A DNA stretch of 64,000 nt from Deltaproteobacteria bacterium. Lineage in GTDB: Bacteria; Desulfobacterota; GWC2-55-46. The position numbers were made by a program, and so were the translations under genes. Of the stretch, positions 21,711 through 46,322 are shown in pieces. The stretch lies in the NCBI GenBank assembly GCA_020846435.1, contig JADLDY010000001.1, positions 62,001 through 126,000 of the forward strand, written 5' to 3'. Below the pieces are notes generated by a model. It worked only from the letters and a program-made list of their open reading frames with translations. It did not search any database and was not told the DNA's origin. Position 1 is the stretch's first letter. Each line of letters starts with the position of its first letter.

Positions 21711-23465
21711 ATGACAGAGAAAAAGGGGAAGATTTACGGGGTGGCAGGCCCGACGGTCCTTGTAAAGGGCATGAGCGGGCCTGTCATGAACACCGTCTGC
21801 CTCGTCGGCAGGCAGGGGCTCCTTGGCGAGATAATCAGGGTCAAGGGCGACTTCGCCACTTTGCAGGTCTACGAGGACACGAGCGGCATCTCGGTCGGCG
21901 AAGAGGTCGTAAGCTATGGGCTGCCCTTGAGCGTAACCCTCGGCCCGGGGCTCCTTGCCGGCATATTCGACGGCATACAGAGGCCGCTCGAGAAGATAAG
22001 GCTCGCCGCCGGAGGCTTCATACCCAGGGGCATAAAGATAGAGGCCATCGACAGGGAGAGGCTCTGGGAGTTCGCGCCGCTTAAGAAAAAGGGCGACCCT
22101 GTCGAGCCCGGAGACATCATAGGCACTGTCCAGGAGACGCCGAGGATAGTCCACAAGATAATGGTCCCCCCCGGCTCATCCGGCACGATTACAGAGATAA
22201 AGTCCGGCATGGTCTCAGGCAAGGAGCATGTCTGCATGCTCTCGACCGGCAAGTCCATCGGCCTTTTTCAGGAGTGGCCCGTCAGAATCCCGAGGCCGTT
22301 CAAATCAAAACTTCCACCTACGACCCCGTTCATAACCGGGCAGAGGGTCTTTGACACGCTCCTTCCGGTTGCCGAAGGCGGCACGGCGATAGTGCCGGGA
22401 GGCTTCGGCACAGGAAAGACGGTCGTCGAGCAGACCATAGCGAAGTTCTCCAAGAGCGACATCGTAGTCTATGTCGGCTGTGGCGAGAGGGGCAACGAGA
22501 TGTCGGAGATATTGAGTGACTTTCCGGCGTTGAGCGACCCTGCCTCAGGCCTGCCGTTGAGCCAGCGCACGGTAATCGTCGTCAACACCTCGAACATGCC
22601 TGTTGCCGCGAGGGAGGCTTCGATCTTCACCGGAATAACGATAGCCGAGTACTTCCGCGATATGGGTTACAGCGTTGCCATGCTCGCCGACTCGATATCG
22701 CGCTGGGCAGAGGCTTTAAGGGAGATATCGTCGAGGCTCGAAGAGATGCCCGGCGAAGAGGGCTTCCCGCCGTATCTGGCCACCCAGCTCGGCATATTCT
22801 ACGAGCGTTCCGGAAAAGTCAGGTGCCTCGGGGCAGATGAGAGGACCGGCTCTGTCACGGTCATCAGCGCGGTCTCCCCACCGGGCGGCGATTTTTCCGA
22901 GCCTGTCACGCAGGCTTCATTGAGGTTTGCCGGCACGCTCTGGGCGCTCGACCCGGACCTCGCGTACAGGAGGCACTTCCCGGCCGTCAACTGGCTCGCG
23001 AGCTTCAGTTTGTATCACTCGGAACTTGGCGGCTGGTTCTCCGGGAATGTAGCCGAAGACATGGCGAGACTGAGAAGGAAGCTCTTCACGCTCCTTCAGA
23101 GGCAGACCGAGCTTCGCGACATAATACAGATAATCGGAGTGGAGGCTTTGCAGGAGTCCGACAGGCTTACGTTAGAGGTCGCGAACATCGCGACAGAGTC
23201 TTTCTTGAAGCAGAGCGCGTTCAGCGAGGTCGACGCCTTCAACACCTACGAGAAGCAGTATTGGATGCTCAAGGCCATATTCGCTTACATGGAGAGCGCG
23301 GAAGCCGCATTGAGGCGCGGCGTCTACATAGAGACGATACTCGAGAACCCGGCGGCATCTTCCCTGGCGGCAATGAAGGAGATGGCGAACGAGGGCTTCT
23401 CGAAAAAGGCTTCTGAGCTGATACGCGACATCGAGAGCGAGTTCGCCATACTCGATGAAAAATAG
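21711..23465 (+). CDS. atpA: V/A-type ATPase catalytic subunit A
   Basis: Catalytic nucleotide-hydrolysing or -synthesising subunit. At 584 residues it has the A-subunit-specific insertion (bulge domain, including PEATP-like region EPGDIIGTVQETPRIVHK). The P-loop GGFGTGKTVVEQ, Walker B-like YSVAMLADSISRWAEALREIS and the EEMPGEEGFPPYL signature are all present. The N-terminal barrel begins GKIYGVAGPTVLVKG. It follows subunit F by one base. Confidence 0.98.
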   Translation: MTEKKGKIYGVAGPTVLVKGMSGPVMNTVCLVGRQGLLGEIIRVKGDFATLQVYEDTSGISVGEEVVSYGLPLSVTLGPGLLAGIFDGIQRPLEKIRLAAGGFIPRGIKIEAIDRERLWEFAPLKKKGDPVEPGDIIGTVQETPRIVHKIMVPPGSSGTITEIKSGMVSGKEHVCMLSTGKSIGLFQEWPVRIPRPFKSKLPPTTPFITGQRVFDTLLPVAEGGTAIVPGGFGTGKTVVEQTIAKFSKSDIVVYVGCGERGNEMSEILSDFPALSDPASGLPLSQRTVIVVNTSNMPVAAREASIFTGITIAEYFRDMGYSVAMLADSISRWAEALREISSRLEEMPGEEGFPPYLATQLGIFYERSGKVRCLGADERTGSVTVISAVSPPGGDFSEPVTQASLRFAGTLWALDPDLAYRRHFPAVNWLASFSLYHSELGGWFSGNVAEDMARLRRKLFTLLQRQTELRDIIQIIGVEALQESDRLTLEVANIATESFLKQSAFSEVDAFNTYEKQYWMLKAIFAYMESAEAALRRGVYIETILENPAASSLAAMKEMANEGFSKKASELIRDIESEFAILDEK

Positions 23466-23474
23466 GAGAGACGA

Positions 23475-24824
23475 TTGGCCATTGACCTCATAAAACGCGA
23501 GTACCGCACCATAAGCTCGATCTCCGGCCCTCTCGTCTTCGTAGAGAAGGTCACTGGCGCTTCTTTAGGCGAGATGTGCTCTGTCGTGCTCGGCAGCGGA
23601 GAGAAGCGCACAGGCCAGATACTCCAGCTCATGGGCACGACAGCCATTGTGCAGGTCCTTCAGGGCACTTCCGGCATAGACCCTGAGGCCGCCCGCGTAT
23701 TCCCGACAGGAGAGGCCGCAAGGATCGGCGTCTCAAAGGACCTTTTCGGCAGGGTCATGAACGGCTTCGGAGTGCCCATCGACGGCCTGCCGCCGATAAT
23801 ACCGGACGAGTACCTTGACATCAACGGGCTGCCCATGAACCCGGCCTCGCGCGAGAAGCCGGACTTTTTCGTGCAGACCGGGATATCCGCGATAGACGGG
23901 CTCAATACGCTCGTGCGCGGGCAAAAGCTCCCGATCTTCTCGGGCGCGGGCCTTCCGGCCAAAGAGCTCGCCCTCCAGATAGTCAGGCAGGCGAAAGTCG
24001 CCGAGACAGGGGACTTCGCCGTCATACTCGGGGCCATGGGCATAACCTCGAGGGAGGGCTTTTTCTTCAGGAAGTCTCTCCAGGAATCAGGCGCGCTCGA
24101 ACGGACGATAGCGTTCATAAACGAGGTGAGCGACCCGACGATAGAGAGGCTTTTTACGCCCAGGATAGCCCTGACTGTCGCCGAGTACCTTGCCTTCGAG
24201 CGCGGCTACCACGTCATGGTCATCCTCACGGACATGACCTCGTACTGCGAGTCGCTGCGCGAGATAGGCTCTGCCAGAGAGGAGATACCCGGCAGGAGGA
24301 GCTACCCGGGCTACATGTACACGGATCTGGCCACCCTCTACGAGAGGGCGGGCAGGCTCAAGGGCAAGAAAGGCTCTGTCACGCTCATGCCGATTTTGAC
24401 CATGCCTGACGACGACATAACGCATCCGATACCCGACCTCACCGGATATATAACCGAAGGGCAGATAGTCCTCTCCCGCGCCCTCCACAGGAAGGGCATA
24501 TACCCGCCGATAGAAGTCCTGCCGTGCCTCTCCAGGCTCATGACCCTGGGCATAGGAAAGGGCAAGACAAGGGAAGGGCACAGGGCTATCTCGGATCAGC
24601 TCTACTCGGCGTACGCGAGGGGCATCGACGTAAGAAGGCTCGTGACCATAGTCGGCGAAGAGGGCCTCTCCGACCTCGACAGGAGGTATCTTGAGTTCGC
24701 TGACGAGTTCGAGAGGAAGTTCGTCGGACAGCTCGATGAAGACCGCTCGATAGACGCGACCCTCGACCTGGGGCTTGAGCTCTTGAAGAGCGTGCCTGAA
24801 GGCGAGTCCGTAAGGAGAAAATAG
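23475..24824 (+). CDS. atpB: V/A-type ATPase non-catalytic subunit B
   Basis: 449-residue partner of subunit A in the hexamer. The equivalent of the P-loop is degenerate ([15 protein letters not shown]), as expected for the B subunit. Other markers are [36 protein letters not shown] and [20 protein letters not shown]. The start is TTG with AGGAGAG upstream at a good distance; no ATG occurs nearby in frame, so TTG is accepted. It is followed after one base by subunit D. Confidence 0.97.
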
Positions 24825-36994: not shown

Positions 36995-37960
36995 ATGTCA
37001 GAAGCAGGGGTAGTGGCAGCCGGCAGGCAGGAAGAATTACTTGCCGTAAAACCATTTGAACAGCAACGCGTGCAGTTCGAGGGCTGGCTGGTCTTCGTTG
37101 CCATACTGGTGACGCTCGCGTGCGCGTACGAGTCCCTGGCGCAGACCTTCGTGCCTGCGGCAAGCATCCTCTCGATGCTTCACACGTACGGGATAATGGA
37201 GGCCTACCCCGTGGTCTACGAGCCGGGCAAGGGCATATGGCGGCTCATGGGCTGGACCGGCTCCGGCATGATGGTCCTCATGATGGCGTATACCATCAGG
37301 AAGAGGCTCGGGCACAAGTCTTCCCTGGGCTCCATGCGCGTGTGGCTCAACTTCCACATGCTCATGGGCATCGTAGGGCCGATACTCATAACCTTCCATA
37401 CCACTTTCAAGTTCGGCGGGCTCATAGGCACGAGCTACTGGGCCATGCTCGCGACCGTCATGTTCGGAGTCGTCGGCAGGTACATCTACATCCAGATACC
37501 CAGGGGCATCAACGGCGCCGAGCTTTCCATGAAGGACATAGACTCCATAGTCGGCGCCATGGAAAAGCGCATAGAGAGCCAGCTCGAGAAAAAGGGAGTC
37601 GACCAGAAGAAGATCCTCTCTCTCCTGAACGGCGTGAACGACGCCGCCGTGCACGACGGGAACGGCTTTGTGGTCCTTCTACACCTCATAGCGAACGACC
37701 TGAAGAACAGGTTCAGGACCTGGAAGTTGAAGCGCGCCATCGTGAGGCAGTTCGGCTTTGACAGCTGGACGGCGGAAAAGACGATCGCCCTGGTCAAGAA
37801 GAAGGCCGCGCTCGTGAGGAAGAAGAGCCTCCTGTCAACGACCCACAGGATGCTCAAATACTGGCACGTCGTCCACATACCGCTTGCCATAGTGATGTTC
37901 TCTATCATGTTCATACATATCATCGTATACTTCGTGTTCAGCCCTTCTGCCGGGTATTAA
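36995..37960 (+). CDS. Five-helix b-type cytochrome of the electron-transfer operon
   Basis: 321-residue integral membrane protein with helices near residues 30-50, 84-100, 119-140, 148-168 and 291-318. Helix 3 carries His-x13-His (HMLMGIVGPILITFH) and helix 5 also His-x13-His (HIPLAIVMFSIMFIH), the pattern expected for two bis-His b haems bridging helix pairs. A charged ~110-residue segment lies between helices 4 and 5. It resembles cytochrome b561/ferric-reductase-like membrane domains, though I cannot name a precise family. It is followed after 5 bp by the giant multihaem cytochrome, so a quinol-to-cytochrome electron donor role is inferred. Confidence 0.82.
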   Translation: MSEAGVVAAGRQEELLAVKPFEQQRVQFEGWLVFVAILVTLACAYESLAQTFVPAASILSMLHTYGIMEAYPVVYEPGKGIWRLMGWTGSGMMVLMMAYTIRKRLGHKSSLGSMRVWLNFHMLMGIVGPILITFHTTFKFGGLIGTSYWAMLATVMFGVVGRYIYIQIPRGINGAELSMKDIDSIVGAMEKRIESQLEKKGVDQKKILSLLNGVNDAAVHDGNGFVVLLHLIANDLKNRFRTWKLKRAIVRQFGFDSWTAEKTIALVKKKAALVRKKSLLSTTHRMLKYWHVVHIPLAIVMFSIMFIHIIVYFVFSPSAGY

Positions 37961-37965
37961 AGAAA

Positions 37966-40900
37966 ATGGAGCCGTTATCCGTGTCCAAGACTGACATGGC
38001 GCCTTTGCGGCGCGCTTTTCATACGACCTTCCTTGCCGCCATGCTCGTCCTTCTTTTAAGCGTCCTGCTGCTGCCTGCCGCCTCATTCGCGGCCGACGGC
38101 AAGGAAGGCGTGCACACGCTGATCTCCCCCGGCCCTCTTGCCTCTGCCCACGCCAAATACGACGGCATACTGAGCTGCACCAAGTGCCACAGGCTTGGCG
38201 GCGGCGTCCCTGACAGGCTGTGCCTGGACTGCCACGACAAGCTCGATGAGCGCATAAAGGCCGGAAGGGGCCTGCACGCCAAGTACAAGGACCCGTGCGC
38301 CAAGTGCCACAGTGACCACAAGGGCCGCTCTTACAAGATGATAATCCTTGAAGAGAAGAAGTTCGACCACGATAAGACCGAGTACAAGCTCGTCGACAAG
38401 CACCAGAAGGTCGAGTGCGCCAAGTGCCACAAGAAGCAGGGCGAGTTCATTGGCGCGCCCAAGACCTGCGTGGGCTGCCACAAGGACGAGCATAAAAAGC
38501 AGCTCGACCAGGACTGCTCAAAGTGCCACAACATCAAGGACTGGAAGGACATAACCTGGTTCGACCACGACAGGGACTCGGTCTACGCCCTTACCTGGAA
38601 GCACAAGGAAGTGAAATGCGCCAAGTGCCACGCGCAGGGCAAGTGGAAGCCGATAGAGCACAAGAAGTGCGACGCCTGCCACAAGGACGTGCATAAGGCC
38701 CAGTTCAAGGGCCAGCTCTGCGACGCCTGCCACACTACAAAGGACTGGAAGGCCGACAAGTTCAAGCATGTCCCGCCCGAGTACAAGGGCTACGCTCTCG
38801 ACGGCAAGCACCTTACGACCCCGTGCGACAAGTGCCATGTCAAGGGCGCGTACAAGCCCATAAAGTCCGCTACCTGCGACGGCCCCGGGTGCCACCCCAA
38901 CCCGCACAAGAAGCAGTTCGAGGGCAAAAAGTGCGACGCCTGCCACGTGACCGCCGGCTGGGGCAAGGACGCGTTCGACCACGGCGACCCCGCGTACAAG
39001 GGCTACAAGCTCGAGGGCAAGCACCAGAAGGTCAAATGCGAGGAGTGCCATCAGAAGGGCGTGTACAAGCCCCTGAAGTACAAGCTCTGCGAGGACTGCC
39101 ACAAGGACGAGCACAAGGGCCAGTTCAAGGCTCAAAAATGCGATTCGTGCCACACGGTCAAGGACTGGAAAGAGGAGACCTTCGACCACAACGGCCCCAG
39201 ATACTCGGGCTACAAGCTCGACGGCAAGCACTTGAAGACCCCTTGCGACAAGTGCCACGTCAAGGGCGAGTACAAGCCCATAAAGTACAAGGCTTGCATC
39301 GACTGCCACAAGGACGAGCATAAGGATCAGTTCAAGGGCAGGACGTGCGAGTCGTGCCATGACACGAAGGACTGGAAGAAGACCTCCTTTGACCATAACT
39401 CGCCTTCGTACAAAGGCTACAAGCTCGATGGCAAGCACCTTAAGACGCCTTGCGACAAGTGCCACATAAACGCGAAGTGGAGGCCTCTGCCGGACGGGTG
39501 CAATAACTGCCACGAGAAGGACGATACGCACAAGCAGGAGCTCGGCAGCCTCTGCGGCAAGTGCCATAACACTACCGACTGGAAAAAATACACGCTCAAC
39601 CACAACACCCAGGCGAAGTTCCCGCTCATCGGCAAGCACAAGGACGTGAAATGCGAGAAGTGCCACCCCGAGAGCAAGAAGCCCAAGAGGTACAGGACCG
39701 GCGAGCTCAAGTGCGTGGACTGCCACAAGGACGTGCACAAGGGCAAGTTCAAGGAAGAGTGCTCGAGCTGCCATAACCAGTCCGACTGGGTACCCAAGAG
39801 GTACGACCACGGCAGCAAGACCGGCTATCAGCTTTCAGGCGCGCACGAGGGCACGAGCTGCGGGAGCTGCCATAAGACGGCCGACTATAAGATGACCAAG
39901 AAGAGCTGCTTCCAGTGCCATAACGACCCGCACGACAACCAGTTCGGCAAGGTCGAGTGCTCTGAGTGCCACACGCAGGCTTCGTGGAGCCCGATGCAGT
40001 TCAGGCACACCGGCACCCGCTACCCTCTGACCGGAGCGCACAGGGCTGCTCTTTGCGGCGAGTGCCACAAGGGCGGCAACTTCAGGAACACGGCAACCGT
40101 CTGCTCCAACTGCCACATGGACAAATACGCGGCCGCCCCAAGCCACGTCGCCAAGAGCTATGGGACCAACTGCTCGGCGTGCCACATCGAGACGATGACC
40201 GCCTGGGGCTTCAAGCACCCGGGAGGCACTGACTGCGCCTCGTGCCACCTTGCAGAGAGGCCGGCGACCCATACCTCCAACACGGTCAGGTTCCCGGCGA
40301 CCTGCGCCACCTGCCACAAGTACCCGGCGTGGACTCCGTCTACGTTCAACCATCTGGCCAAGACCGACTGCTCGGCCTGCCACGGCCCGCAGAAGCCCTC
40401 GACCCATACGGCCAACGCGGTGAAGTACCCGGTGACCTGCGAGACGTGCCACAAGTATCCGGCGTGGACGCCGAGCATATTCACCCACGCTTCAACAACC
40501 AATTGCTCGGCCTGCCATAGCCCGCAGAAGCCGTCGACCCATACGGCCAACAGCCAGAAGTACCCGAACACCTGCGAGCAGTGCCACAGGCACCCGTCAT
40601 GGACGCCTTCGACCTTCAACCACACGGCGGCGACAAACTGCATAGCCTGCCACGTGTCTCAGAAGCCCGCGACCCATACGGCCAACGCGGTGAAGTACCC
40701 GTCGACCTGCGAGAGCTGCCACAGGTACCCGGCATGGGCGACGGTCTCGCATGTCGTCACGACGACTAACTGCTCGAGCTGCCACCTCTCCAAGAGGCCG
40801 GCGACCCACACGGCCAATACGACGAAGTACCCGACTACATGCGAGCAGTGCCATAAATACACTACTCCGTGGACGACGGCCACGCATGTCGTAACTACGG

Positions 40901-42555
40901 CGAACTGCTCGAACTGCCACCTCACGCAGAGACCGGCGACCCACACGGCCAATACGACGAAGTACCCTGTGACCTGCCAGAGCTGCCACAGGTACACCGC
41001 TCCGTGGACGACGGTCACGCATGTCGCCGCCACGGTGAACTGCTCGAACTGTCATCTCACGCAGAGGCCGACTACCCACACCGGGAACACGGCGAAGTAC
41101 CCGGCGACCTGCGAGAGCTGCCACAGCACCTCTGTGTGGACCCCGTCGACCTTCACGCACCCGACGACGGCCGTCTGCTCGAACTGTCACCTCACGCAGA
41201 GGCCTGCGACGCACACCGCGAACCCGACAGCGTACCCGACTACCTGCTCGAATTGCCACAGGTACCCTGTATGGGCGACGATTTCGCATATCGTCACGAC
41301 GACTAACTGCTCGAGCTGCCATCTTTCGAAGAGGCCGGCGACCCACACGGCCAATACGACGAAGTACCCGGTGACATGCGAGCTGTGCCATAAATACACT
41401 ACTCCGTGGACGACGGCCACACACATGGTCACGACGGCTAACTGCTCGAACTGCCACCTCACGCAGAGGCCGGCGACGCACACGGCCAATACGACGAAGT
41501 ACCCGACGACCTGCCAGAGCTGCCACAGCACTTCTGTCTGGACCCCGTCGACCTTCACGCACCCGACGACGGCCGTCTGCTCGAACTGCCACCTTACGCA
41601 GCGCCCGACGACCCACACGGCCAACCCGGCCGCGTACCCGACGGTCTGCTCGAACTGCCATACCTATCCCGTGTGGGCGACAGTGAAGTACTCGCATAGC
41701 GGCGCCACGAACTGCTCGACCTGCCATCTGGCGAAGAGGCCGGCGACGCATACGGCCAACCCGACAGCGTACCCGACGACCTGCTCGAGCTGCCATACGT
41801 ACCCGGTCTGGGCGACAGTGAAGTACTCGCATACCGGAGTCACGACGAACTGCTCGAATTGCCATCTTGCGAAGAGGCCGGTGACCCACACGGCCAGCAC
41901 GCAAAAGTTCCCGACGACCTGCGAGCAGTGCCACAAGTACCCTTCGTGGACGCCGAGCACACTGGTCCACACAACGACCATGACCTGCTCGACCTGCCAT
42001 CTTTCGCAGAGGCCGACGACGCACACGGCGAACCCGACAGCGTACCCGACGACCTGTTCGAGCTGTCATAATTACCCGACCTGGGCCGCCATCTCGTACA
42101 CTCACACGGCCTCGACGACAAATTGCCAGTCATGCCATCTTTCGAGGAGGCCGGCTTCGCACTTGTCGAACCCGACAAAGTACACGACCGTTTGCGAGGC
42201 CTGCCACAAGTACGCGAGCGGCTGGACGTTCGTACATTCGACGAGCACCGCGATAAGCTGCAACTCGTGCCATTCGACGGATTACCCGGCCCCGCACCTT
42301 GCGTATAACTCGAGGTTCGGCACGGTTTGCCAGAACTGCCATACATACCCCGTGTGGCCTACTACCAGGTTCACGCACACGTTCAGCGTCTTCCCCGTGA
42401 ACCATGAGGGCTTCACGAGGTGCTCTGACTGCCATCCGGCCAAGGCTTACGGCAACAAGGGCGGCTGCATTGAGTGTCATACCGCCAGGGGCGAGAAGGT
42501 GCACAAGGTAAGCACTAACGCCGGGTGTTTGAGCTGCCACCCGAGGGGAAACTGA
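37966..42555 (+). CDS. Giant secreted multihaem c-type cytochrome, 65 candidate haem sites
   Basis: 1529 residues. A signal peptide spans ~1-42 (LLLSVLLLPAASFA, cleavage before ADG). I count 64 CXXCH motifs plus one CX4CH (C304-DGPG-C309-H310). Sites 1-30 (to residue ~750) are Lys-rich three-haem units of ~70 residues with motifs such as CHKDEHKGQFK, DWKEETFDH and GYKLDGKHLKTP. Sites 31-62 are Thr/Pro-rich two-haem units of ~45 residues (CSNCHLTQRPATHTANTTKYP, then CxxCHxYPxWTPSTFTH). Free His recur in every unit, fitting bis-His ligation. Sites 63-65 form a short cap. No catalytic domain is visible, so an electron wire is the likely role. It sits between a b-cytochrome gene and a beta-barrel gene. 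Confidence 0.95.
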   Translation: MEPLSVSKTDMAPLRRAFHTTFLAAMLVLLLSVLLLPAASFAADGKEGVHTLISPGPLASAHAKYDGILSCTKCHRLGGGVPDRLCLDCHDKLDERIKAGRGLHAKYKDPCAKCHSDHKGRSYKMIILEEKKFDHDKTEYKLVDKHQKVECAKCHKKQGEFIGAPKTCVGCHKDEHKKQLDQDCSKCHNIKDWKDITWFDHDRDSVYALTWKHKEVKCAKCHAQGKWKPIEHKKCDACHKDVHKAQFKGQLCDACHTTKDWKADKFKHVPPEYKGYALDGKHLTTPCDKCHVKGAYKPIKSATCDGPGCHPNPHKKQFEGKKCDACHVTAGWGKDAFDHGDPAYKGYKLEGKHQKVKCEECHQKGVYKPLKYKLCEDCHKDEHKGQFKAQKCDSCHTVKDWKEETFDHNGPRYSGYKLDGKHLKTPCDKCHVKGEYKPIKYKACIDCHKDEHKDQFKGRTCESCHDTKDWKKTSFDHNSPSYKGYKLDGKHLKTPCDKCHINAKWRPLPDGCNNCHEKDDTHKQELGSLCGKCHNTTDWKKYTLNHNTQAKFPLIGKHKDVKCEKCHPESKKPKRYRTGELKCVDCHKDVHKGKFKEECSSCHNQSDWVPKRYDHGSKTGYQLSGAHEGTSCGSCHKTADYKMTKKSCFQCHNDPHDNQFGKVECSECHTQASWSPMQFRHTGTRYPLTGAHRAALCGECHKGGNFRNTATVCSNCHMDKYAAAPSHVAKSYGTNCSACHIETMTAWGFKHPGGTDCASCHLAERPATHTSNTVRFPATCATCHKYPAWTPSTFNHLAKTDCSACHGPQKPSTHTANAVKYPVTCETCHKYPAWTPSIFTHASTTNCSACHSPQKPSTHTANSQKYPNTCEQCHRHPSWTPSTFNHTAATNCIACHVSQKPATHTANAVKYPSTCESCHRYPAWATVSHVVTTTNCSSCHLSKRPATHTANTTKYPTTCEQCHKYTTPWTTATHVVTTANCSNCHLTQRPATHTANTTKYPVTCQSCHRYTAPWTTVTHVAATVNCSNCHLTQRPTTHTGNTAKYPATCESCHSTSVWTPSTFTHPTTAVCSNCHLTQRPATHTANPTAYPTTCSNCHRYPVWATISHIVTTTNCSSCHLSKRPATHTANTTKYPVTCELCHKYTTPWTTATHMVTTANCSNCHLTQRPATHTANTTKYPTTCQSCHSTSVWTPSTFTHPTTAVCSNCHLTQRPTTHTANPAAYPTVCSNCHTYPVWATVKYSHSGATNCSTCHLAKRPATHTANPTAYPTTCSSCHTYPVWATVKYSHTGVTTNCSNCHLAKRPVTHTASTQKFPTTCEQCHKYPSWTPSTLVHTTTMTCSTCHLSQRPTTHTANPTAYPTTCSSCHNYPTWAAISYTHTASTTNCQSCHLSRRPASHLSNPTKYTTVCEACHKYASGWTFVHSTSTAISCNSCHSTDYPAPHLAYNSRFGTVCQNCHTYPVWPTTRFTHTFSVFPVNHEGFTRCSDCHPAKAYGNKGGCIECHTARGEKVHKVSTNAGCLSCHPRGN
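40234..42330 (+). repeat. In-frame ~135-bp tandem repeat array encoding haem pairs
   Basis: The 3' part of the multihaem cytochrome gene is a run of degenerate units averaging 45 codons, each with two CXXCH sites. Nucleotide identity is high: CGGCGACCCACACGGCCAAT and ACGACGAAGTACCC recur. A block starting at 40771 recurs at 41308 (offset 537 bp) over roughly 220 bp with few changes, which shows segmental duplication on top of the basic repeat. Confidence 0.9.
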
Positions 42556-42562
42556 CAAGTAG

Positions 42563-43798
42563 ATGAAAAACAAGCTGAGGTTCCTTACCTTACTGGCCAT
42601 GGCCCTGCCGGTTGTTACTGCGGGGGCTTCACAAGCCGCTCAACTGGGCGGCGTGATATCATTCGAGGACTATTATTCAGGGGATACGGCCTCCGGCAGC
42701 AGGCACGCCATGACCGGCAGGCTCAAGCTCGATATCACGAAGATAGGCCCTTCCCAGAAGATAGGTTTTCACTTCGACGCAAGGCAGAGGTTCGACCTCT
42801 CCGGTGAGATCTCCACTTCGAGCAAGGAGGGGAGGATCGACCAGGCGCAGCTCGAATACGCCGGTACGAGCCTTTACCTCTCCATAGGAAGGCTCTGGCC
42901 CAAGGATATGCCGATAGAGGTGGTCGACGGCGTCAACGCCGTCTACCAGGGGCAGGGTTCCAAGACAGGGTTCGGCGTTTACGCGGGGTTGCGCCCCAAC
43001 CCGTACAGCCAGTCAACCACCGCTGATTTTACCTCGGCCGGCCTTTACCTTTCGCACGCGGGCGAGAAGCTCTCGGCAGGAGCGGCCTTCGTGCACAACG
43101 GGTACAAGGGAGACACAGACAGGCAGTACTTCTACGGATACGGCACATGGATGCCCCGTCCTTCGCTCTTCGCCCTGGGCAATATCACGGCGGACCTGAG
43201 CCCTTCAGGAGAGGTGGACCTCACGAACCTCATCGCCGAGCTTACATGGAGGCCCGACGAAGTAAAGAGCTTCACGCTGGGCTATAACCAGTTCAGGGCC
43301 TTCAAGTACTACGCCTCCACCCTCTTCGCGGACATAGACGACAGCCGCCAGGACGGCTTTTACCTGGGCGCGACTTACAGGCTTAACCCCCAGTACATGG
43401 TCTACGGCAGGGTCGAGACGCAAAAGAGGTTCTTCCCGGCGACCGAGACGGGCCAGAACAACATGTTGAGTTACAGGGCTGGCGTGAGCGGCGATAACGT
43501 CCTCAATACCGGGGTCTTCATGAACCTGAGCGCTTCTGTCACCGATAGCTACGGCTCAGAGTACACGGCTTACAGCTTTGACATGAGCAGGATGCTTGGC
43601 GAATCGGTCCAGCTCATGTTCAACGGCGCGTATACCCAGAACGTATACGGCGCGTCTTCGAGCGGAGGGATCGTCAGCTTCGGCGGGTCGGCCTTCTACA
43701 TGGCGAGGAGGTGGAACCTGTCTTTGAGCGTCGACACGGAGCGTGGGACGGATTACACGACCAACAGGATCCTTACGAGGGTGAGCTTCAACCTCTAA
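42563..43798 (+). CDS. Putative outer-membrane beta-barrel (porin-like) protein
   Basis: 411-residue exported protein: signal peptide ~1-26 (ALPVVTAGASQA, cleavage near AQ), then a succession of ~9-11-residue amphipathic strands with alternating hydrophobic residues, Gly/Tyr/Asp turns and aromatic girdle residues (FGVYAGLRPN, YFYGYGTWMP, GFYLGATYRL, YMVYGRVETQ). It ends in RVSFNL, an alternating final strand. About 16 or more strands can be drawn. No family is recognised with certainty. It follows the giant cytochrome by 7 bp, as barrel sheaths do in porin-cytochrome conduits, and a terminator closes the operon. Confidence 0.82.
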   Translation: MKNKLRFLTLLAMALPVVTAGASQAAQLGGVISFEDYYSGDTASGSRHAMTGRLKLDITKIGPSQKIGFHFDARQRFDLSGEISTSSKEGRIDQAQLEYAGTSLYLSIGRLWPKDMPIEVVDGVNAVYQGQGSKTGFGVYAGLRPNPYSQSTTADFTSAGLYLSHAGEKLSAGAAFVHNGYKGDTDRQYFYGYGTWMPRPSLFALGNITADLSPSGEVDLTNLIAELTWRPDEVKSFTLGYNQFRAFKYYASTLFADIDDSRQDGFYLGATYRLNPQYMVYGRVETQKRFFPATETGQNNMLSYRAGVSGDNVLNTGVFMNLSASVTDSYGSEYTAYSFDMSRMLGESVQLMFNGAYTQNVYGASSSGGIVSFGGSAFYMARRWNLSLSVDTERGTDYTTNRILTRVSFNL

Positions 43799-43816
43799 GA
43801 GGCGGCAGATGAAATC

Positions 43817-43850
43817 AAAAAAAGGCAACCCTTTAGGGTTGCCTTTTTTT
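43817..43850. terminator. Bidirectional terminator after the cytochrome operon
   Basis: Perfect 15-bp stem AAAAAAAGGCAACCC/GGGTTGCCTTTTTTT with a TTTA loop. It lies between the beta-barrel gene (+) and rsgA (-), so it can serve both. Confidence 0.95.
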
Positions 43851-43869
43851 GATCCTCTTTCAGGTTTTT

Positions 43870-44931
43870 TCAGTCTTTCATCTGCTTCTTTGCCGACTTG
43901 ATGAAGCGTCCGAACGCTCTGTCTTTTTTCCGTTTATCCGCATACGACAGCTCGTGGTACTCAGATTCCTTCTTAAGCTTCATATAGCTGGAATAGCGTT
44001 CTGCACTCAACTCGCCATTTGCAACCGCGGCAAGAACCGCGCAGTCAGTTTCCTGTGCGTGGCCGCAATTCGCGTAACGACATTTTTCGGAAAGTTCAAT
44101 GATATCTTCAAAGCCCTGATCAACCCCGCCGCCGACACCAAGAAGACCCAGCTCTCGCATCCCCGGCGTATCAATCAGCATAGAGCCTTGCTCAAGGCAG
44201 ATAAGCTGCCGGCGCGTCGTTGTGTGCGTGCCTTCTCCCGTTCCACTGACGGCATTTGTGTTGAAAGCGTTCTGCCCGATCACTCGGTTGATGAGGGTTG
44301 TCTTGCCGACTCCCGATGATCCAAGCAGGCAATATGTTTTTCCCGGGATTAACAGCTGTTGGAATTCGTCGAATCCGGACCCGGTCAAGTTGCTGAGGGC
44401 AAAGACTCTGGATACGGCGCTGGCCTGTTTGACAGCCGCGAGTTCTTCTTCCAGTTCAGCGTGAGAGATCAAATCCGTTTTTGTAAGAATGACAATCGGC
44501 TCGACATGGCCGTCAGCCGCCATTACCAGATACCTGTCCAATCTTTTCATGTTGAAGTCGAAATGACACGATTGAACAATGAAAGCGATATCGATGTTGG
44601 CCGCGATCATCTGGAAATCAACGTTTTCACCGGCGCATTTGCGGCGCAAAAACGTTTTTCTCGGAAAAACTCCATGAATGATCGCTTCGGTGTCATCGTT
44701 GTGATATTGCACCGTAACCCAATCGCCCACACACGGCAGGTCGACTGAGGATTCAACTCGAAAATAAAATTTTCCCGCAAGTTCAGCCGGGATCTCCATG
44801 AGTTCGTTTTTGACAAGATACGAACCACGATCAACCGCTGATACGCGCGCTATATGGTGGCCTTCCTGACGCAAGGCATTGGAATGTGTCTCAAACCATT
44901 CATCAAAACCCAGCTCTTTCAGACTTATCAT
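43870..44931 (-). CDS. rsgA: Ribosome small-subunit GTPase RsgA, foreign composition
   Basis: 353-residue circularly permuted GTPase that acts late in 30S maturation. After an N-terminal OB-fold, G4 (ILTKTDL) precedes G1 (GSSGVGKTTLINRV) and G3 (DTPGMREL), the permuted order of this family. The zinc knuckle CRYANCGHAQETDC follows. Composition differs from its neighbours: lines I counted run near 50% G+C, Arg is often CGT/CGC and Ile often ATT/ATC, where the flanking genes favour AGG and ATA. This suggests recent acquisition. The region upstream is only ~90 bp, with no obvious promoter. Confidence 0.95.
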   Translation of the reverse strand: MISLKELGFDEWFETHSNALRQEGHHIARVSAVDRGSYLVKNELMEIPAELAGKFYFRVESSVDLPCVGDWVTVQYHNDDTEAIIHGVFPRKTFLRRKCAGENVDFQMIAANIDIAFIVQSCHFDFNMKRLDRYLVMAADGHVEPIVILTKTDLISHAELEEELAAVKQASAVSRVFALSNLTGSGFDEFQQLLIPGKTYCLLGSSGVGKTTLINRVIGQNAFNTNAVSGTGEGTHTTTRRQLICLEQGSMLIDTPGMRELGLLGVGGGVDQGFEDIIELSEKCRYANCGHAQETDCAVLAAVANGELSAERYSSYMKLKKESEYHELSYADKRKKDRAFGRFIKSAKKQMKD

Positions 44932-45023: not shown

Positions 45024-46322
45024 CTACGCGGTGCCGAACTTCTTCTCGACCTTCACGCCTATGCCGCGCAGGAAGTCGTTCGGAAGCTCTCCTCCTGCGA
45101 AGATGTAGACGAAGTCGTTGGGCACTTTGGTGAGTTTCCCGTCCGCTTCTATCTGCGCGTCCTTTTCCCTTATCTCTTTGAGGTTCGAGTTAAGGAGGAG
45201 CGAGAGCTTCTTTTCGGAGAGCGCCTTGTCCAGACGGTCCTTGTTGCCCGGCTTTATCCTTGAGAGAGCGTCTCCCCTGTACGAGAGCGTCACCCTGTTG
45301 CCGCAGGAGGCAAGGGACATGGTCGCTTCCACCGCGCTGTCTCCTCCGCCCACGACGATTATGTCATGGCCCTTGTGCTGCTCAGGGTCGAGGAGGCTGT
45401 AGCTCACCTTCGTGAGCTCTTCGCCAGGCACCCCGAGCTTTCTTGGCGTGCCCCTCCTGCCTATGGCGAGGACGATGGTCCTGGTGAGGTACTCGCCCTT
45501 TGTCGTAGTGACCTTGAACTCGCCGGGGAGCTCGGTGAGGGCGGTCATCTTCTCGTTAGTGTTTACTTTAAGACCGGACTTCTGGATGACGCCTGAAAAG
45601 AGCTCAAGGAGGGATTCTTTCGTCGTCTCCCTGACCTTTATCTTCCCGTGGAGCGGCAGGTCCATCGGCTGGGTCATTACTATCTTGTGCCTGGGGTAGT
45701 GGAGGATAGCTCCTCCGATGTCGTTCTGTTCTATGGTTATGAACTTGAGCCCGGCCTTTTGGGCGGCCAGGGAAGCGCTTATGCCTGCCGGTCCCGCGCC
45801 GACTATGAGGACGTCGTACGCGTCGCTTGATTTCTTCTTGTCCTTGATGAAGCAGGTGATGTACTCGACGGCCTGACGCCCCTGGGTGACGGCGTTACGC
45901 ACCAAGCCCATGCCGCCGAGCTCTCCGGCTATGAAGATGCCCTTTACGTTGGTCTCGAAGTTGGGGGAGACGTAAGGTATGTCAACGCCCCTTTTCTCGT
46001 TGCCGAAGACGAGCGTTATGGCCCCGACCGGGCAGGCGGCCGCGCACGCGCCGTGGCCCACGCAGTGGGTCGCGTTGATGAGCGCGCCCCTTCCGGAGAT
46101 GAGGCCGAGGACGTCGTGCTGCGGGCAGGCTTTGACGCAGGCGGTCGAGCCGATGCACAGCGCGGGGTCTATCTTCGGGTGCAGAGTCGTCGGCTCTTCG
46201 TTCATGCCGAACTCGACGGCCTTCTTGAGCTTGGCCTTCGTCTTGCTGGACTTCTTCCCGTAGTAATAGATGTATATGATTATGGCGAGAGCTACTATGA
46301 GCGTTGAGAGCAGGCTTGTCAG
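45024..46322 (-). CDS. Membrane-anchored Fe-S/FAD NAD(P)-dependent oxidoreductase
   Basis: 432 residues from a proposed CTG at 46322. Residues ~3-21 form a membrane helix (SLLSTLIVALAIIIYIYYYG). A ferredoxin-like domain follows, with CIGSTACVKACP and CVGHGACAAACP; in each, the usual second Cys of the cluster is replaced (Ser, His). The rest is a thioredoxin-reductase-like two-dinucleotide fold: VGAGPAGISASLAAQKAG (FAD) and VVGGGDSAVEATMSL (NAD(P)H). No CxxC redox pair is seen in the reductase part. The ATG at 46205 would drop the membrane helix; a GGAGG lies 8 bases before the CTG, so the longer form is preferred. Substrate unknown. Confidence 0.85.
   Translation of the reverse strand: MTSLLSTLIVALAIIIYIYYYGKKSSKTKAKLKKAVEFGMNEEPTTLHPKIDPALCIGSTACVKACPQHDVLGLISGRGALINATHCVGHGACAAACPVGAITLVFGNEKRGVDIPYVSPNFETNVKGIFIAGELGGMGLVRNAVTQGRQAVEYITCFIKDKKKSSDAYDVLIVGAGPAGISASLAAQKAGLKFITIEQNDIGGAILHYPRHKIVMTQPMDLPLHGKIKVRETTKESLLELFSGVIQKSGLKVNTNEKMTALTELPGEFKVTTTKGEYLTRTIVLAIGRRGTPRKLGVPGEELTKVSYSLLDPEQHKGHDIIVVGGGDSAVEATMSLASCGNRVTLSYRGDALSRIKPGNKDRLDKALSEKKLSLLLNSNLKEIREKDAQIEADGKLTKVPNDFVYIFAGGELPNDFLRGIGVKVEKKFGTA

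Follow-up and report, generated by a model that had tools for sequence, protein, structure and literature searches.

A PCC3-like porin–cytochrome locus with putative periplasmic and surface wires joined in one polypeptide

Three adjacent genes in the window (the whole 64,000-nucleotide stretch of DNA analyzed here) encode a b-type cytochrome, a c-type cytochrome with 65 haem sites in one chain and a small β-barrel, which raises the question of whether they form a new class of electron conduit across the envelope, what feeds it and in which direction its electrons run. The three open reading frames lie on the + strand at 36995–37960 (b-type cytochrome, 321 aa), 37966–42555 (multihaem c-type cytochrome, 1529 aa) and 42563–43798 (outer-membrane β-barrel, 411 aa), separated by gaps of 5 and 7 bp. 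They are followed at 43814–43853 by a strong 18-bp terminator hairpin with A/T flanks (ΔG −27.2, z −7.9, 0 of 200 shuffles as good), to which no strand is assigned; its near-palindromic sequence makes it a probable terminator for the trio and the convergent gene rsgA (43870–44931, − strand) alike. This hairpin was absent from the output of a simple terminator scan, and no usable match came from sigma-70 or Rfam scanning of the locus. A first-pass annotation had read the trio as a trans-envelope conduit encoded by three closely spaced genes closed by one terminator. The reading frames and the hairpin bear out the gene layout, and the conduit in one operon is well supported, as far as sequence can tell, by conservation, co-occurrence and anatomy. 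Its three-part set of b-cytochrome, wire and barrel is present but lacked a fourth partner, a predicted Fe–S/FAD oxidoreductase encoded beyond rsgA at 45024–46205 (− strand), which contains two ferredoxin-like cluster motifs and a Pyr_redox_3 domain. Elsewhere in the window (21711–24824) are V/A-type ATP synthase genes with two catalytic-type subunits, which is unexpected in such a bacterium.

The b-type cytochrome contains no CxxCH motif and is identified by its motifs, modelled helices and alignments. The two His-x13-His pairs previously ascribed to an inner-membrane protein were found as H121/H135 and H294/H308, each within a W-x3-H-x13-H motif: W117-x3-H121-x13-H135 on TM3 and W290-x3-H294-x13-H308 on TM5, with F157-G-x2-G161 on TM4 between them. 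W117/H121/H135 and W290/H294/H308 are invariant in both alignments made (16/16 and 35/35 b-cytochromes). In TM4, which reads FGVVG (157–161) in the window, G158 and G161 are invariant and the serine of the PCC3 motif is replaced; the distant locus L068 has SGLVG. The AlphaFold2 model (mean pLDDT 79.6, pTM 0.63) contains helices at 21–52, 81–104, 114–136, 143–166 and 257–315, compatible with five TM segments, and by the positive-inside rule the Lys/Arg-rich stretch between TM4 and TM5 would be cytoplasmic. Pfam gave nothing firm for the protein; DUF4405, Ferric_reduct and Ni_hydr_CYTB matched some family members weakly, and no haem protein was among the matches of two fold searches with the model. 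Helical-bundle look-alikes, mostly ABC exporters (Z ≤10.6; none in Foldseek with E <0.4), were set aside. The placing of the four histidines on TM3 and TM5 would suit a diheme route through the membrane like that of ferric reductases, an argument that He et al. made for PCC3 (PMC5566968).

The giant cytochrome has a Sec-type signal-like N terminus and 65 sites (64 CxxCH and one CX4CH at residue 304), or one site every 23.5 residues, so motif count and N terminus confirm the secreted 65-site cytochrome described at first pass. Its 130 cysteines equal 2 × 65, its 134 histidines suffice for bis-His ligation, and the sites are expected to be loaded with haem; Pfam recognizes cytochrome c7/c3-type repeats. 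Three parts can be distinguished on the + strand. Segment 1 (residues 71–516; 38176–39513), delimited by site spacing and profile scores, is Lys-rich and has 20 sites (19 CxxCH and the CX4CH). It is followed by a nine-haem block with a characteristic spacing pattern (residues 530–717; 39553–40116) and by a Thr/Ser-rich tail, recognized by spacing, repeats and composition (residues 736–1525; 40171–42540), in which 36 haems are mostly arranged as 45-aa two-haem repeats (135 bp).

Fourteen complete single chains, from the window and 13 named loci, could be compared. Segment 1 spans 438–442 aa and carries 20 sites, CX4CH included, in 11 of them; the remaining three span 368, 507 and 511 aa and thus differ by about one 70-residue module, less or more. 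The nine-haem block spans 179–183 aa in all 14, and the tail ranges from 9 to 38 haems and from 231 to 864 aa (CV 0.45). Five further, incomplete chains begin within the locus and reach the block before running off their contigs (L052, L054, L056, L088 and L066, the last identical to L097). Segment 1 measures 440, 439 and 439 aa in three of them, 310 aa in another and 232 aa in L066/L097, which brings the count to 14 of 19 chains at 438–442 aa (others 232, 310, 368, 507 and 511); the constancy of segment 1 is therefore strong, although not absolute. The 232-residue segment of L066/L097, with 11 haems, could reflect real shortening or collapse of repeats in the assembly. Partial or split chains at L045, L053, L060–L063, L071, L072 and L101 also stand outside the 14-chain count, and L062, L063 and L045 carry the block as well (span 180). 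The block was found through its spacing pattern, so that its count of nine haems follows from the pattern and what is observed is its presence in every chain covering the region. It was initially taken to be the unique barrel-crossing part, because Gammaproteobacterial loci encode a separate nine-haem protein with a span of 178–179; this reading was reduced to a guess, as the same spacing occurs within the first multihaem cytochrome of 6 of 19 split loci. Our guess is that the block is the barrel-crossing or an outer-periplasmic part, and the Thr/Ser-rich tail would be extracellular.

The barrel protein has a signal-like N terminus and no cysteine, and its AlphaFold2 model (mean pLDDT 83.1, pTM 0.69) has 22 strands and lacks a plug, in agreement with the outer-membrane barrel assigned earlier. 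For comparison, MtrB has 26 strands, four of them short and out of contact with MtrA and the other 22 full length (PMC7198977). Neither the window barrel nor its family matched an MtrB-type Pfam or NCBIfam model, with nothing firm in Pfam, and a sequence search against solved structures found no match. Structural comparison listed general barrels led by TonB receptors, with MtrB not among the matches listed; such a list weighs neither for nor against kinship with MtrB. The best matches listed by Foldseek were general porins. The barrel profile did align to Bacteroidota-type proteins encoded after multihaem cytochromes in split loci (hhalign 99.5%, E 1.1e-22, 374 columns), the comparison set being seven proteins of 512–605 aa that were picked by position and size and have an extra N-terminal part. 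Any relation between the small barrel and the proteins in barrel position in Gammaproteobacteria was not detectable (6.9%). One of the latter (L121:8149-10179) has a weak SPOR-domain match, and a SPOR domain also lies in the N-terminal part of a 29-haem cytochrome (L068:216-3713, E 2.7e-22), where it could possibly serve as a cell-wall anchor for the wire.

The barrel is closely tied to the other two genes. Of 59 relatives, 23 have the b-cytochrome; the 17 with the barrel all belong to these 23, and none of the 36 that lack the b-cytochrome has it. Across 395 genomes of the phylum, the barrel profile matched seven, of which five were strong (E ≤2.4e-139) and two, G082 and G153, weak and partial and without a b-profile match; the b profile matched 15, five of them strongly (E ≤7.5e-95), and those five also hold the strong barrel matches. 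Scanning named bacterial genomes yielded 49 loci, each counted once where its contig also appeared under a G handle. The 49 come from Deltaproteobacteria-type groundwater MAGs (including GWA2_54_12 and GWB2_55_19), Nitrospirota, Nitrospinota and a Desulfuromonadales MAG and, more distantly, from Bacteroidota, Ignavibacteriota, Calditrichota, Neomarinimicrobiota and Gammaproteobacteria. The Deltaproteobacteria-type groundwater MAGs probably belong to the GTDB class GWC2-55-46. For that class a ubiquinone pathway and possible use of O2 have been reported (PMC13386864). A multihaem cytochrome gene lies downstream of the b-cytochrome gene in 42 of the 49; three of the other seven are at contig edges (L085, L103, L116) and four lack it (L084, L086, L089, L106). 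L084, L086 and L089, all Nitrospinota, have a b-cytochrome with no adjacent multihaem cytochrome. The search for the same trio in other genomes that the first-pass annotation had proposed gave a uniform answer: all 14 named loci whose contig reaches the small barrel show the order b-cytochrome, cytochrome, barrel on one strand, one of them (L079) with a cytochrome gene split by a frameshift. The arrangement is more than chance. That annotation had also considered that the barrel might be unrelated to conduits and independent of the cytochrome, against which stand the co-occurrence and the hhalign match.

Two paralogous loci, L095 and L109, on the same contigs as L059 and L058, encode the b-cytochrome, a 21-haem cytochrome and the Fe–S/FAD protein. 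They have no barrel, and their cytochromes end within the block and have no tail; the joint lack of barrel, tail and most of the block is as expected if block and tail accompany the barrel. At L091 (7589-9364), genes for a 13-haem cytochrome and a short b-type protein immediately precede those for a second b-cytochrome and a 43-haem cytochrome.

Does this constitute a new class of conduit, as the first-pass annotation had ventured? It does not, because PCC3 and PCC4, which had already been described, join an inner-membrane protein with two H-x13-H motifs, multihaem cytochromes and a porin (PMC5566968). PCC3, defined in 2017 (PMC5566968) and modelled later (PMC10734462), resembles the window in encoding within one cluster an inner-membrane protein of about 300 aa (five TM segments, with one W-x3-H-x13-H motif on TM3 and another on TM5), a porin and giant cytochromes that are rich in small residues and spend few residues on each haem. 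It differs in having separate periplasmic and extracellular cytochromes (medians of 21 and 34 haems according to He et al. 2017, PMC5566968), whereas the 1529-aa chain has equivalents of both; in its large porin, mostly with many TM regions and up to 42 of them (PMC5566968), compared with 411 aa and 22 predicted strands; and in its TM4 motif, SGxxG instead of FGxxG. Because its wire is one chain, its barrel is small and the serine of TM4 is replaced, we call the locus PCC3-like rather than PCC3; the homology shown here that bears on PCC3 membership is to the Gammaproteobacteria MAG loci L119–L122 only.

Better-known conduits are more remote. Like MtrCAB, MtoAB and PioAB, the window encodes a multihaem wire that would be sheathed by a barrel, and the cytochrome has a weak DmsE/MtrA-type similarity (TIGR03508, 106 bits against a cut-off of 192, best stretch at residues 661–896). 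Unlike these systems, it shows no MtrB-type family match, has 65 sites rather than 10 + 10 haems and includes the inner-membrane protein in the same operon. It also shares the combination of porin and multihaem cytochromes with the Geobacter OmbB-OmaB-OmcB and Ext conduits, but these have separate 8- and 12-haem cytochromes (PMC5566968), no family match to them was found in the window, and the inner-membrane components named for Geobacter are ImcH, CbcL and CbcBA (PMC12133095).

The closest counterparts with separate wires are the split loci L102–L122 (Bacteroidota, Ignavibacteriota, Calditrichota and Gammaproteobacteria), in which the b-cytochrome, the first multihaem cytochrome and the Fe–S/FAD protein are homologous to those of the window. 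They differ in having two or three separate cytochromes and a barrel of about 510–690 aa with an extra N-terminal part, which is homologous only in the Bacteroidota type and not detectably related in Gammaproteobacteria. The first cytochrome has 17–23 haems and a nearly constant span (CV 0.08, n=19), and the second 9–55 haems and a variable span (CV 0.58, n=20, some cut by contig ends); the first thus behaves like segment 1 and the second like the tail. A similar locus in Burkholderiales is reported to vary in the length of the larger of its two cytochromes (PMC7399161). Profile scores follow the same division, in that the N-part profile scores higher for 19/19 first cytochromes and the C-part profile for 17/20 second cytochromes (full-sequence scores; exceptions L104, L112 and L113, with L115 close). 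Six first cytochromes align in one piece and end at model position 481–499 (two others end at 428 and 562), and in six second cytochromes the match near their own N terminus starts at 498–507, around window residue 520 (others start at about 428–438 or at 565–572). Repeats are able to shift such end points, so this position is a likely junction of the segments rather than a proven one.

In the b-cytochrome tree, one branch (99/99) divides fused-type from split-type loci, with a warning from the program about long branches, and the simplest reading is one fusion, or one fission, in the past of the family. The 22 tree rows labelled fused comprise the 14 complete single chains, the frameshift-split L079 and seven that run off their contigs (L077, L080, L083, L088, L091, L097 and L098). 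What is new here is the single-chain wire with a small barrel, together with the flavoprotein partner. No description of the single-chain form was found in the parts of the open-access journal literature that were searched.

The Fe–S/FAD protein bears directly on what feeds the conduit. Besides its two ferredoxin-like cluster motifs, it carries a membrane anchor and an FAD/NAD domain that resembles thioredoxin reductase. In the window, the frame is open upstream as far as the anchor and the full-length match extends to about 46322, so its start is probably a non-ATG codon; a frameshift suspected from the short ORF was dropped, as the anchor lies in the same open frame. The second cysteine of the second motif is replaced by histidine (C-x-G-H-G-x-C) in 34 of 35 proteins (in L107 the motif was not found by pattern), and the second cysteine of the first motif by serine or threonine in 25 of 35, including the window protein, which could indicate unusual cluster ligands. 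The gene is present beside 12 of the 14 trios. An ankyrin-repeat-like protein is encoded beside it at L068 (one same-order family) and in the Gammaproteobacteria L119–L122. Such a partner suggests a donor on the NAD(P)H or ferredoxin side rather than quinol only; NAD(P)H or a ferredoxin in the cytoplasm becomes no less likely a source of electrons than quinol. The partner is not mentioned in the portion of the He et al. 2017 account of PCC3 that we used (PMC5566968).

On balance we favor a PCC3-like porin–cytochrome conduit in which periplasmic and surface wires are parts of one polypeptide and electrons run outward from an NAD(P)H- or ferredoxin-type donor. The membrane-anchored Fe–S/FAD protein would take electrons from NAD(P)H or from a ferredoxin-type donor in the cytoplasm, and the electrons would cross the inner membrane via two b haems, one held by H121/H294 on the cytoplasmic side and one by H135/H308 on the periplasmic side. 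The N-terminal 20-site segment would carry them over the periplasm to the nine-haem block, inside or at the 22-strand barrel, and the 36-haem tail outside the cell would deliver them to a mineral, a humic substance or a partner cell. Localization, complex formation, the barrel-crossing segment, the outward direction and the acceptor are all inferred. MtrA spans 80 Å with 10 haems (PMC7198977); extrapolated at similar packing, the 20 sites would cover about 170 Å and all 65 about 570 Å, so segment 1 could cover most of the periplasm and the tail would have to sit elsewhere.

A serious competitor, to which we give about one chance in three, is that the b-cytochrome oxidizes quinol directly and that the Fe–S/FAD protein is an unrelated neighbor. 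He et al. proposed a quinone-active cytochrome b by analogy to bc1 and to hydrogenase cytochrome b (PMC5566968), and the Fe–S/FAD gene is on the opposite strand in Deltaproteobacteria-type loci, missing at L078 and L094 and, in the window, outside the operon of the trio and separated from it by rsgA. Against this, the gene was found within the fetched stretch at 29 of the 49 loci, of which many are truncated by contig ends, and it directly follows the b-cytochrome gene on the same strand in eight loci of other phyla (L102, L103, L105, L106, L108, L110, L111 and L115, of which L103 is cut off and L106 has no cytochrome gene).

The reverse direction, with the wire drawing electrons from extracellular Fe(II) or another solid donor and passing them through the b-cytochrome to the quinone pool and O2, is unlikely, at roughly one chance in four. 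PCC3 was found in Fe(II) oxidizers and was modelled as running from donor to quinone (PMC5566968). In the genome itself, three matches to the COX1 family exceed the cut-off and there is a bc-type cytochrome b; these haem-copper oxidase-family and bc-type matches would make inward flow possible. The conserved Fe–S/FAD partner, however, indicates a donor at the NAD(P)H level, and Fe(II)-driven reduction of NAD(P)+ would be uphill. In Sideroxydans ES-1, moreover, both PCC3 clusters were downregulated on Fe(II) (PMC8788666). PCC3 has been termed functionally unverified (PMC12442390), and no functional test of any PCC3-like relative was found in the parts of the literature available to us.

The genome also has a ResB-type cytochrome maturation gene, and a search of it for CcmF found none. 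A second multihaem cluster (L161, contig C18, 6459–14453) encodes 7-, 4-, 11-, 4- and 6-haem proteins with PQQ- and NHL-type β-propellers, and recalls the Uet set as summarized in PMC10734462.

That the giant cytochrome instead stays inside as a periplasmic electron store, with the barrel a solute porin, is very improbable: it would agree with the general porins that head the Foldseek matches listed, with the existence of the barrel-less L095 and L109 and with by-eye inspection, which identified no lipid anchor or surface signal, but those same paralogues have no tail, the barrel accompanies the cytochrome in 14/14 loci and is related to proteins encoded at multihaem loci in other phyla, and the full chain would far exceed the width of the periplasm if packed like MtrA (extrapolated from PMC7198977).

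If the outward, PCC3-like conduit is right, one protein would do the job that takes several in Shewanella or Geobacter, and the locus would be a minimal system for moving electrons across the envelope. A bolder version of it, which we regard as rather doubtful, holds that one chain, with as many as 66 CxxCH haems, extends without a break from the b haems of the inner membrane over the periplasm and via the 22-strand barrel to the cell exterior, and that an NAD(P)H-linked Fe–S flavoprotein feeds it by way of a diheme b protein resembling ferric reductases, quinol playing no part; if true, this would be a one-piece, quinone-independent trans-envelope cable with a periplasmic part nearly fixed in length and a variable outer part. 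The nearly fixed inner part and the variable tail offer a sequence-level test of which haems are periplasmic and which are outside. The flavoprotein partner, finally, provides a testable answer to how PCC3-type conduits may be fed, which was left as a quinone hypothesis in 2017 (PMC5566968).
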